Assembly (NCBI RefSeq): GCF_001096185.1
Contig: NZ_CRPU01000006.1
Coordinates: 81,896-145,895, forward strand
DNA length: 64,000 nt
Direction: 5' to 3'
From: Streptococcus pneumoniae
GTDB taxonomy: Bacteria; Bacillota; Bacilli; Lactobacillales; Streptococcaceae
Shown: one piece after another, positions 4,688-64,000 of the stretch
Numbering within the stretch: position 1 is the stretch's first letter
Layout of the letters: every line of letters starts with the position of its first letter
The notes under the pieces: model-generated
The model's database searches: none
Seen by the model: only the letters and a program-made list of their open reading frames with translations
Told to the model about the DNA's origin: nothing
Program-made: the position numbers and the translations under genes

Positions 4688-4853
4688 GAAGCTAGTCGTA
4701 GGTTGCTCAAAGCACTGCTTTGAAGTTGTAGATAAGACTGACGAAGTCAGCTCAAAACACTGTTTTGAGGTTGTGGATAGAACTGACGAAGTCAGTACCC
4801 ATACCTACGGCAAGGCGAAGCTGACGTGGTTTGAAGAGATTTTCGAAGAGTAT
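4658..4853 (-). repeat. BOX element (boxA-boxB-boxB-boxC read on minus)
   Basis: Ends in the boxC motif (atactcaatgaaaatcaaag) on the left and boxA (ttcgaagagtat) on the right, with two boxB modules between, each containing the gactgacgaagtcag palindrome. Confidence 0.92.
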
Positions 4854-49075: not shown

Positions 49076-49124
49076 TCGGAGTCAACAACCTAGAAACTAA
49101 AATAAATGTAAAATTGAGGAAAAT

Positions 49125-51327
49125 ATGTCGAGACAATCAACTAAGAATAAAAAATATGCTTTACGTAAAATCGGAAAATATTTCGGTTCCTGCGTAGTGG
49201 CTACTGTCATTACCCTAGGTGGTGCTGCAATGATGGCACCAAATGTAGTTCATGCTAGTATTGGTAGCGCGGGGGGGGGGTGCAACTGAGAAGATTACAG
49301 ATATTTCTTCTTCCGATGATGGGTATGAAGTCCGAGTTCCTAAAGGGAAGAGGTATGAAAGTGATAATACAGTCGAAAGTCATAAACCTATCTTGAAACA
49401 TGAAGGTCATGACGGTAGAAGTTTTATTTTAAAGGCTGAACCAAGTGAAAATCTGGAAGAAGATAAGATAAACGACCATTTCACTGATTATCCTATGGAT
49501 TCGTTGTTTAAAAACTTGTATGATGAAGATGAAGATGGAGAGATTGACGATAAATATAAAAGAGCTGATGCTATAAATGAAAATGCTGGTAACCCAATTG
49601 CTGGTACAACCTTTGTTGAGCCTAAAGTAAGTGATGTAGATACAAAATACCCTCATCGTGTTGATTCAGGGGTAACGAATATTACTGAGACATATGACAG
49701 TAATAACGATGGGAAACCTGATCGAGCTGACGGTATGATTGATGAACAAGATACTATTGTAGAGGCTAATAAACCGATAGAAGTTAATCCAGAGGAAGAC
49801 AAAAATGTTGTGAAAGAAGATGGGACAGTTGTCTTATCTAAGTATTATCGTATCCATGTTAACGAAGGAGATACAGCCGATAAAGACGATGATGTCTATG
49901 TAGTCGGAACCAAACCAAAAGTAGAAGAAAAAGAACTACCATTTACAACACGCTATATAGAAGATAAAACCAAAGACAAAGATTATCGAGTAACAACTCA
50001 ACAAGGTGTTAAGGGTAAGGAAACAAAAACAACTACTTATACGTTGGATACAACGAATGGTACAGTCACAGAAAATGCTCCAACAACGGATACAGAACAA
50101 CCAACAGAAGAAATTATAACAGTTGGAACAAAACCAAAAGTAGGAGAAACACCGGAGACTCCACAACCGAAACCAGGAGAAACACCAGAAACTCCACAAC
50201 CGAAACCAGGAGAAACACCAGAAACTCCACAACCTGAACAACCAACCGCTCCTGAGGAAGCACCAACTCAACCAGGACAGCCATCTGAGCCTGAAGACCA
50301 ACCAAATCTTAAGGTAGCTCCGCCGACTATCGCTATTGTGGAAGAACCAAATAAAGCAAGCATTGAAGTCACAGCACCTAAGAAAGATGCGGATACGGTC
50401 AAAATTACGTATCCTAAGAGTGATGGCTCTGGTAATGAAGTTCTAACTCTTACGAAGCAATCTTCTGGCGAATGGACTTTAGACAAACAACCTGAACATG
50501 TTACATTAGACAAGAAAACAGGTACTGTAACCATTCCACGAGAATCAGTTGTCAATAAAGAAAAAGTCCAAGCTCGAGCCAAGCATAAAACGAGTGCTTA
50601 TACTCCGTTTGTATACGCTGCTTTATCAATCGAAGCAGCAAACCCAGAGCATCCAGTAACGCTGTGGGTAGATACAGCAGGAACTGAGCTTAAGAAACCA
50701 GTAGTTGGTAAGAAAGAACTTGCTGGCGAAATTGCAGGCTACAAGTGGTTATCTAGTCGCTTAGAAGAAGGTATTTTGACGCATACATTTGAGAAAGTAG
50801 CGAATGGAACTCCAATTTTACCAGAAAGCTCAACTAGTCATCCAATGACTCCATCAAGTTCGCCATCAACTTCAACGCCAGAAAAACCAAACAAAGCTGA
50901 AACTCCAACGGTTCGTACAGTATGGCGCGATGAAAACGGAAAAGACTTGAAGGTTCCATCAGTTGATAAGCAAGAAGCAGGTGAAGTTCCAGGCTATGAA
51001 TTTGTTGAGAGTCACCGTGAGGGAGATAACTTGACAGTTCATGTGTTTAGAACCAAGCAAGCTCAAACTCCTGCTCCAAAAGACCAAACTCCAAGTCCAG
51101 AACAGGCTGCAAGCCCAGTACCATCTAAAGTTTCAGAACAAAAAGGTGAAGCAGTGGCTACAGCTACATCAGAAAAGACAGTAGATCGTGCAACATCTAC
51201 GAAAACATCTGATAAAGCAGAATTGCCAAACACAGGTACAGAAGCGAATGCTAACCTTGCAGCACTTGGACTTCTTGGAGCCCTTAGTGGATTTGGACTT
51301 CTTGCTCGCAAGAAAAAAGAAGACTAA
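49125..51327 (+). pseudogene. LPxTG surface protein, switched out of frame by a G10 tract
   Basis: ATG 49125, after ttgaggaaaat, starts a signal peptide (KYALRKIGKYFGSCVVATV, ending APNVVHA). Fifteen bases later the frame enters ten G residues (49271-49280) and stops at TGA 49287-49289. The rest of the protein is open in the +1 frame to 51327. With nine G (or 12, or 6) the two frames join as GSAGGGATEKITD and give a 733-residue protein. Contents: an acidic Asp-rich N-region, Pro repeats (GETPETPQPKP, three times), a beta-sandwich module VAPPTIAIVEEPNKASIEVT, two short repeats (TLWVDTAGTELKKP and TVWRDENGKDLKVP), then LPNTG and the basic tail RKKKED. I treat it as a phase-variable gene in the OFF state, not a dead pseudogene. 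Confidence 0.85.
49271..49280 (+). repeat. Poly-G tract (G10) in the coding sequence
   Basis: Ten consecutive G just after the predicted signal-peptidase site. Loss of one G restores the reading frame. Confidence 0.95.
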
Positions 51328-51342
51328 AAACTCATAGTTTTT

Positions 51343-51370
51343 AAGAAGATGATTTGTCATCTTCTTTTTT
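51343..51370 (+). terminator. Terminator after the second surface-protein gene
   Basis: AAGAAGATGA-tttg-TCATCTTCTT followed by a T run. Confidence 0.92.
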
Positions 51371-53255: not shown

Positions 53256-54239
53256 ATGATTCTCAGACATCCGGGCATCAGCCCAACCAACGACTTGGTT
53301 GCTAAGAAAATTTTTAGCAACCCAGAAATCACTTGTCAATTTATTCGCGATATGTTGGACTTGCCAGCAAAAAATGTGACCATTTTGGAGGGAAGTAACA
53401 TTCACGTCTTGCCTTCCATGCCCTACTCAGCGCAGGATTTCTATACCAGTATAGATGTTTTGGCGGAGTTAGATAATGGAACGCAAGTTATCATTGAGAT
53501 TCAAGTGCATCATCAGAATTTTTTCATCAATCGCCTGTGGGCTTATCTGTGCAGTCAGGTCAATCAAAACCTAGAAAAAATTCGCCAACGAGAAGGTGAT
53601 ACCCACCAGAGCTATAAACACATCGCACCAGTATATGCTATCGCAATTGTAGATAGTAATTATTTCTCAGATGACCTAGCTTTTCATAGTTTTAGTATGC
53701 GAGAGGATACGACGGGTGAGGTTTTAACCATAACCAATAATGGACAAGAAAACCATCTAGTCAAGATGGCATTCTTGGAATTAAAAAAATATAGAGAAAC
53801 CAGCAAAGACAAGGTTCGCAAGCCGTGGTTGGAGTTTTTCGGGAATAAACCCTTTACCCAGCGCCCCGAGCGAGCCATCAGCCAAGCAGACCAACTGCTG
53901 GACTATAAGAGCTGGTCCGAGGAGGACAGAAAAATGTTTAGCCAACTACGTATGCGAGAAGAACAAGCCTTGTTAGCACAGGACTATGCTTTGGAAACCG
54001 CTAGGGCTGAGGGGGTTGAACAAGGTTTAGAACAAGGTTTAGAACAAGGTTTAGAACAAGGTTTAGAACAAGGTTTAGAACGTGGTCTTGAACAAGGACG
54101 AGCAGAAGGTATTGAACAGGATTTAGAACGTGGAAAACTTTTTGCCTTCTTAGACATGGTTCGTCAACATGTTTTAACTTCTGAATTTGCCAGCCAGCAG
54201 TTAGGAATGACTGTCGCTGAGTTTGAGTCACTCTTGTAA
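53256..54239 (+). CDS. Rpn-family nuclease / PDDEXK_2 (copy E)
   Basis: A 327-residue intact member with the MILRHPGISP N-terminus shared with the broken copy B. Nuclease residues Asp 67 and E-x-Q 81-83 are present. The C-terminal variable region is expanded: five identical 12-base units give repeated EQGL, followed by ERGLEQGRAEGIEQ. The tail is shorter and diverged (VLTSEFASQQLGMTVAEFES). Start ATG 53256 follows aaaggagg. Internal start ATG 53934 would give 101 residues. A frame extending upstream to 53217 begins inside the BOX element and is not the start. Confidence 0.87.
   Translation: MILRHPGISPTNDLVAKKIFSNPEITCQFIRDMLDLPAKNVTILEGSNIHVLPSMPYSAQDFYTSIDVLAELDNGTQVIIEIQVHHQNFFINRLWAYLCSQVNQNLEKIRQREGDTHQSYKHIAPVYAIAIVDSNYFSDDLAFHSFSMREDTTGEVLTITNNGQENHLVKMAFLELKKYRETSKDKVRKPWLEFFGNKPFTQRPERAISQADQLLDYKSWSEEDRKMFSQLRMREEQALLAQDYALETARAEGVEQGLEQGLEQGLEQGLEQGLERGLEQGRAEGIEQDLERGKLFAFLDMVRQHVLTSEFASQQLGMTVAEFESLL
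53921..53936 (+). other. Internal ribosome binding site and ATG in copy E
   Basis: gaggaggacagaaaa then ATG 53934, in frame. Confidence 0.55.
54018..54077 (+). repeat. Five tandem 12-base units in copy E
   Basis: gaacaaggttta repeated five times, identical, coding for EQGL. Copy D has two. Confidence 0.92.
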
Positions 54240-54399: not shown

Positions 54400-54789
54400 A
54401 TGATTATTTTACAAGCTAATAAAATTGAACGTTCTTTTGCAGGAGAGGTTCTTTTTGATAATATCAACCTGCAGGTTGATGAACGAGATCGGATTGCCCT
54501 TGTTGGGAAAAATGGTGCAGGTAAGTCTACTCTTTTGAAGATTTTAGTTGGAGAAGAGGAGCCAACTAGCGGAGAAATCAATAAGAAAAAAGATATTTCT
54601 CTGTCTTACCTAGCCCAAGATAGCCATTTTGAGGTTGCAGATAAGACTGACGAAGTCAGCTCAAAGTACTGCTTTGAGGTTGCAGATAAGACTGACGAAG
54701 TCAGCTCAAAGTACTGCTTTGAGGTTGCAGATAAGACTGACGAAGTCAGTATCATATACATACGGCAAGGCGAAGCTGACGTGGTTTGA
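54400..54789 (+). pseudogene. 5' fragment of an ABC-F ATPase, truncated by a BOX element
   Basis: Residues 1-76 are the start of an ABC-F (duplicated ATPase, no membrane domain) protein: MIILQANKIERSFAGEVLFD, Walker A GKNGAGKSTLLKIL, then KKDISLSYLAQDSHF. A full ABC-F protein has over 500 residues, so almost everything, including Walker B and the second ATPase domain, is lost. From 54627 the frame runs through three boxB units, each of 45 bases and therefore in frame, giving repeated FEVADKTDEVSSKY, and ends at 54789. An ATPase of this kind cannot function. Confidence 0.9.
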
Positions 54790-63411: not shown

Positions 63412-63423
63412 GGGGGGGGGGGG
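63412..63423 (+). repeat. Poly-G tract (G12) in a promoter
   Basis: Twelve consecutive G ending five bases before the TATAAT of the third surface-protein gene. Confidence 0.95.
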
Positions 63424-63425
63424 TA

Positions 63426-63434
63426 TGGTATAAT
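63426..63434 (+). promoter_or_regulatory. Extended -10 promoter next to G12
   Basis: TGG-TATAAT with TATAAT at 63429-63434. The region where a -35 box should lie is at the left edge of the G tract (taaatt at 63405-63410, spacing 18), so tract length sets the spacing. Confidence 0.75.
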
Positions 63435-63564: not shown

Positions 63565-64000
63565 ATGGACTTTGGAAAATATAACAAAGAAAAAGTTTTC
63601 CGATATTCAATTCGAAAATATCACTTTGGTGCTGCCAGTGTCGCGGTGGCGGCTCTGATGTTCTTTGCCAATGGAGTAGCTGCTCAAGCTCCTGCAGTAT
63701 CTTCGGCAACAGCCAGTGATGTAGTTGCTGGATCTTCTGGAAATTCAGATGGGAATCCAGGAACCTCGGATGAGGAAGACTCGAGCAAGGCTTCAACTAG
63801 CCAGCCAGCTGAACTTAAAGCACCTGATGAGGTGAAAACGCAAGAAGCTCCAGCTGAGGGAACCAATCAAGGGCAAGCAGTAGCTGAGTCTAACTCTGCT
63901 CAGTCAGAGACAAATCCAGCTAGCCAAGAACCTTCTCAAGCAGGAGAAGTAAAAGAGCAAGAACAGCCGACCGTCGCTGATACGACAGCAGCCAAATCGA
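63565..64000 (+). CDS. YSIRK-type surface protein, 3' end outside window
   Basis: Open to the window end (145 codons visible). Starts MDFGKYNKEKVFRYSIRKYH with the YSIRK motif and a hydrophobic FGAASVAVAALMFFANGVAA signal, cleaved near AAQA. Everything after that is Ser/Ala/Glu/Pro/Thr low complexity (SSGNSDGNPGTSDEEDSSKA, then ESNSAQSETNPASQ), the usual spacer of large LPxTG adhesins or surface enzymes. The functional domains lie beyond the window. Strong aaaaggag before the ATG; the promoter carries a G12 tract. Confidence 0.88.
   Translation, partial: MDFGKYNKEKVFRYSIRKYHFGAASVAVAALMFFANGVAAQAPAVSSATASDVVAGSSGNSDGNPGTSDEEDSSKASTSQPAELKAPDEVKTQEAPAEGTNQGQAVAESNSAQSETNPASQEPSQAGEVKEQEQPTVADTTAAKS

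Follow-up and report, generated by a model that had tools for sequence, protein, structure and literature searches.

A surface-protein gene split at a run of ten G

In a 64-kb stretch of Streptococcus pneumoniae DNA (contig NZ_CRPU01000006.1), referred to here as the window and taken from a 2.117-Mb draft genome of 24 contigs, the gene for a cell-wall-anchored surface protein is interrupted by a run of ten G residues. This homopolymer, G10, lies at 49271-49280 of the + strand between a C at 49270 and a T at 49281, and is proposed here to act as a switch. Translation from the ATG at 49125 yields a signal-peptide product of 54 codons, MSRQ...VVHASIGSAGGGCN, that ends at a TGA (49287-49289) just past the tract, while the remainder of the gene runs in a different frame from 49282 through 681 codons without a stop to the TAA at 51325-51327. 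The upstream and downstream frames are offset on the two sides of G10, and its length sets whether they meet. An ATG at 49252, 5' of the tract, stands in the frame of the remainder and opens a 691-codon open reading frame whose product has no signal peptide; it was rejected as the usual start, because the signal peptide kept by four aligned relatives would be bypassed.

The remainder has the C-terminal LPXTG motif (here LPNTG), the hydrophobic stretch and the positive tail of a sortase-anchored Gram-positive surface protein (PF00746, TIGR01167). The signal piece is without a Pfam match, and neither the Pfam YSIRK profile nor NCBIfam TIGR01168 matched it up to E 0.1; it carries YALRK and was accepted as YSIRK-type by the loose motif used in the tract counts below. 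An earlier note on this DNA had described just such a layout, with a signal-peptide frame that reaches G10 and soon stops and an undecayed, LPNTG-bearing remainder in the other frame, and both parts of that description were borne out. Its statement that the gene is now off is correct for the assembled consensus, and for that consensus only.

A contig scan found nine loci related to the window gene, among them loci of S. thalassemiae, S. mitis, S. pseudopneumoniae and S. pneumoniae strain 19F. Four of these relatives are open from the signal peptide through LPXTG, at 780 to 1300 residues, and a fifth is open as far as its contig end. The remainder aligns with the four full-length relatives except for extra repeat units present in them, and in the alignment G10 falls in a short, variable linker that separates the signal peptide from the first conserved block. 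The signal-peptide region was matched in 12 of 284 genus genomes, the window's own included; two of these matches, weak and short (G011, G107), lie outside the nine loci inspected for the tract. The ratio of nonsynonymous to synonymous substitution rates (dN/dS) of the remainder is 0.35-0.46 against five relatives, compared with 0.35-0.55 for pairs among the relatives, which speaks against an old decay of the remainder but not against a recent fixed frameshift. With 681 open codons and a dN/dS like that among the relatives, the sequence past the tract is intact. As a separate observation, runs of the dinucleotide TA, 26, 24 and 18 bases long, are present in the loci L080, L081 (start 5041) and L083 (start 5836), 18-44 bases 5' of the start of a related surface gene, and are possibly another kind of repeat switch.

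Judged from this anatomy and the comparisons that follow, G10 is probably a translational contingency switch that works by slipped-strand phase variation. Mispairing of the slipped strands in replication would cause Gs to be gained or lost, and the resulting tract length would decide whether ribosomes that have passed the signal-peptide codons translate the rest of the LPXTG protein or terminate a few codons on. With the two frames out of register in the assembled genome, the protein would be off in that state, with only the short signal-peptide fragment being made. In live populations the length of G10 would be expected to change, reversibly, and the protein to be lost from the surface in some of the resulting states.

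Long G runs in the genome and the genus

Runs of this length are far above the background of the window. Counts of G/C runs drop 0.15- to 0.17-fold with each extra base (lengths 2 to 5), and because of this roughly six-fold thinning runs of ten are unexpected in 64 kb: about 0.002 runs of at least 10 are predicted by extrapolation from 117 runs of at least 4, and two were seen, G10 itself and a G12 at 63412-63423. The whole genome holds 11 G runs of at least 8, six of which reach at least 10. All six of the latter lie within -250 to +350 bases of the start of a predicted secreted gene, the secreted-protein label here and below being a heuristic of hydrophobicity and motif rather than SignalP, and five are by genes that are YSIRK-type under the loose motif, the window gene counted among them. 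At the lower threshold 8 of the 11 are placed by such a secreted-gene start, and the three exceptions are all G8.

The genus was surveyed in a G10 scan of 197 genomes, with about 173 matches in total and about 150 of them listed. The runs are patchy, with at least one in 62 genomes. Loci from the scan, additional genomic regions and this genome's own loci made up 139 sources, of which six loci of G002 were left out for their odd G-rich clusters; the remaining 133 gave 127 distinct tracts, and 122 were counted after five that lay too close to a locus end were set aside. Six of the 122 are this genome's own. Of the 122 tracts of at least G10, 51 were near a secreted start; of the 132 G5-7 runs from the same loci that served as controls, 17 were (p=1.4e-7). 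When only YSIRK-type starts are considered, the figures are 24 of 122 and 2 of 132. The placement of the long G runs at surface and secreted genes is not random. In G002 (L200-L204) many G-rich runs are clustered in a manner unlike that of other tracts, and this may be foreign or faulty sequence.

Homopolymers are error-prone in sequencing, and it might be argued that the tract is really of some other, fixed length and the gene simply expressed. The genome is a draft, and in another genome of the survey (G088) G runs fall at contig ends and beside Ns, both of which favour such an error. However, runs of at least G10 also occur on chromosome-length contigs of other species (G053, G123, G164, G041, G014, G109), and, whatever its exact length, so long a G run is unusual in itself and is positioned like the other tracts. 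A length error of this kind is considered very unlikely.

Further comparisons came from sister tracts within coding sequence. A search for runs of at least G8 that follow a signal-like frame and, as a condition, precede an open stretch of no fewer than 150 codons returned 12 rows. Two of them are without a YSIRK-type motif and membrane-protein-like, one open and one broken. The other ten are YSIRK-type by the loose motif, with four open and six broken, the window gene being among the broken ones; one of the ten (L256) comes from a different genus within the order. Two sister tracts of this genome have orthologues in the opposite state. The first (L068, C2:158814-158826) is a G13 and open, and its orthologue in G084 is a G12 and broken, with 150-base flanks that are 95% identical upstream and 89% downstream (ungapped). 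The second (L071, C5:156257-156264) is a G8 and open, and its orthologue in G160 is a G10 and broken, with flanks of the same length that are 96% identical upstream and, lowered by small indels, 64% downstream (ungapped). Both comparisons are between species, not inside one population. Such pairs are the best support for a switch, and the phase variation that the earlier note had proposed is supported by the anatomy, the undecayed remainder and the open relatives, but above all by these sister tracts.

Several points weigh against this reading. At the tract site the nine other related loci have no G run longer than G6, and the window tract has no orthologue that could display length variation. 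Interspecies dN/dS mostly covers time before the frameshift and therefore leaves room for a recent one. No G10 run of any kind is present in 135 of the 197 genus genomes, and the length of G10, read in a single assembly, could be a sequencing or assembly error. As the nine related loci are without a long tract, the switch here would be young or lineage-specific, and the long G run looks specific to the lineage of the window gene; a conserved, old switch at this locus was rejected on the same ground.

A recent fixed frameshift, in which the run grew by chance and left a young pseudogene that does not switch, fits the lack of long tracts at the related loci. Ordinary mutation can also cost relatives the gene: one of them (L247, in the one-contig genome G247) is cut short by a simple nonsense codon some 160 residues in, with the same frame open past it, so that loss of the gene by a plain route is possible too. 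Yet the 681 codons carry no second lesion, and the tract is placed like the G tracts that follow other signal peptides, where four of ten are open and two are matched by an orthologue in the opposite state. The position of six of six long G runs of the genome at predicted secreted-gene starts also argues against it, and a fixed frameshift is regarded as unlikely.

Promoter-side tracts and other features of the window

Many tracts in the genus are placed between TTGACA and TATAAT-like hexamers. A strict pattern for such poly-G spacer promoters, TTGAC..G9+..TANAAT, gave 64 matches (63 distinct tracts) in 37 of 284 genus genomes, and the reversed pattern gave none. The spacers are 15 to 27 bases long, with 19 the commonest (21 of 63), followed by 20 (12), 17 (10) and 18 (9). 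In a 395-genome sample of the order the pattern was found in 10 of 71 genomes within the genus and in 3 of 324 outside it; it has no match anywhere in the genome studied here, whose own promoter-side tracts deviate from it. The next gene after 47 strict-promoter tracts encodes a predicted secreted protein in 25 cases, a protein with no signal in 16 and a membrane-like protein in two, with no gene called in the other four. Since only 25 of the 47 precede a secreted protein, promoter tracts are not a feature of surface genes alone. L256, the locus from another genus of the order (genome G359), combines a match to the spacer promoter (G9) with a G10 that follows a YSIRK-type signal peptide.

The second long tract of the window, G12, is about 140 bases before the ATG at 63565 of a YSIRK-type surface gene, close to a -10 hexamer (Table 1) and with no good -35 sequence. 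The homologous promoter in G001 (L261) has a G9 at the corresponding position and likewise precedes a YSIRK-type gene; a search with the region of the G12 tract matched mostly coding sequence. G12 is probably a second, transcriptional switch in the window. Another tract of this genome (L066, C1:116556-116568), beside a regulator-like gene, is a G13, and the same site has 20, 15 and 14 Gs in L104, L106 and L160. The flanks are near-identical across the four genomes, and the next gene encodes a secreted protein in two of the four (L066 and L104). In all, orthologous copies differed in length at two coding sister tracts, a promoter tract and an intergenic one; for the window G10, no long run is present in any of the nine related loci. 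Two further tracts of this genome may be mentioned, namely a G9 flanked by TTGACA and TATACT in front of a gene for a secreted protein (L073, C9:65483-65491) and a G10 before the extended -10 sequence of a YSIRK-type gene (L072, C8:13489-13498).

RNA polymerase also slips on long G runs, and polymerase slippage or ribosomal frameshifting on G10 could in principle give a steady, low level of the full protein with no switching of the DNA. Such action would leave unexplained the orthologous DNA tracts that differ in length and are open in one genome and broken in another, and also the poly-G runs in promoter spacers, and it is hardly credible as the main action of the tract. Viewed across the genus, the evidence leans towards a patchy set of poly-G switches in streptococci, enriched at secreted and surface proteins and turning over fast between species, of which the window gene would be one young member. 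The proposed set would have two recurring builds, one with the G run just behind a signal peptide, acting as a frame switch, and the other with the run filling the -35/-10 spacer, acting as a promoter switch.

Table 1. Features at and around the split surface-protein gene, in window positions
Feature	Position	Strand	Basis
G10, in the variable linker that separates signal-peptide region from first conserved block	49271..49280	+	Sequence; alignment with relatives
Signal-peptide reading frame, 54 codons, ending TGA	49125..49289	+	Weak partial match to NCBIfam PspC_relate_1, residues 4-45
Surface protein remainder, 681 codons	49282..51327	+	Open frame; aligns with four full-length open relatives
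G5 domain	49912..50133	+	Pfam PF07501, E 5e-9, residues 211-284 of remainder
SSSPR-51 repeat, better of two stretches	50914..51051	+	Pfam PF18877, E 9e-17; NCBIfam TIGR04308
LPNTG cell-wall anchor, Gram-positive	51202..51324	+	Pfam PF00746, E 1e-10; NCBIfam TIGR01167
GAGG, ribosome-binding-like site of the surface gene	49116..49119	+	By inspection
Terminator-like stem-loop 3' of the gene	51343..51366	+	Consensus match; weak (3 in the sequence, 2.7 in shuffled sequence)
Upstream neighbour, YSIRK/MucBP/LPXTG surface protein, 1260 aa	45241..49023	+	Profile matches
G12, second window tract, 5 bases 5' of TATAAT 63429-63434, extended form TGGTATAAT	63412..63423	+	Hexamers by inspection

The upstream neighbour has no G or C run of at least 8 within it. 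Rfam and tRNA scans and a search of a plasmid collection gave no match, nor did a PDB sequence search with the remainder at E 0.01. Elsewhere in the window there are tandem repeats of a 12-base unit, GAACAAGGTTTA, in about nine copies at 54018-54129 and of a 45-base unit in 2.7 copies at 54628-54749, the latter being similar to a unit at 4705-4795.

Known systems and significance

The mechanism of slipped-strand switching at poly-G is well known in Neisseria. The HmbR and HpuAB genes of that genus are reported to be poly-G translational contingency loci, and they resemble the window gene in having a G homopolymer within the reading frame of a surface protein, whose length sets expression (PMC3786947). 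They differ in that Neisseria is Gram-negative and the switching there was measured, whereas in the window gene it is inferred and the tract stands behind a signal peptide in a protein with a sortase anchor. Among Gram-positives, the secreted and adhesin genes PPA1880 and PPA2127 of Cutibacterium (Propionibacterium) acnes have run lengths that vary between strains, with a G run that alters either the length of a promoter spacer or, alternatively, the N-terminal frame, and a C run at the 5' end of the adhesin gene; this example comprises two genes, in another phylum and of other protein families (PMC3224659). Gardnerella has many G/C tracts 5' of or within genes, LPXTG surface proteins included, and one tract was variable among colonies, but this is also another phylum, and about 70% of its G/C tracts are upstream, with about a quarter of tracts lying within a reading frame (PMC11287997).

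Within Streptococcus itself, a poly-T at R28/Spy1337 of group A Streptococcus places an LPXTG surface protein under homopolymer-length control, although it is T rather than G, intergenic and transcriptional, and sets graded levels rather than a frame; the same paper cites a poly-T upstream of bca (PMC7098570). In mga of group A Streptococcus a C homopolymer in the reading frame was shown to switch frame reversibly, but it is eight bases long, in a regulator gene, and acts indirectly on M protein (PMC10330708). The remark in the earlier note that such loci are less discussed in streptococci is therefore fair, though these two cases keep it from being absolute. No poly-G set in streptococci was found among the listed titles of the open-licence literature, which does not establish its absence, and none is described in the available portions of a 2025 review (PMC11868660) and a pneumococcal genomics paper (PMC4263131). 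The accessible part of a homopolymer survey (PMC2831843) has no such set either, nor any occurrence of 'streptococc'. Slipped-strand homopolymer switching is thus already known as a kind, also in Gram-positives, and the window locus would be a new member of it.

If the switch is real, a gene labelled as broken in a reference genome would in fact be a switch, and single cells of this Streptococcus would differ randomly in their surface proteins. Strain comparisons, adhesion assays and surveys of surface antigens would then depend on a tract length that can be read from sequence. Because the proposed set would turn over fast between species, related species would also differ in the surface proteins displayed per cell. 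In having a 'phasome', streptococci would then stand nearer to Neisseria and Gardnerella.
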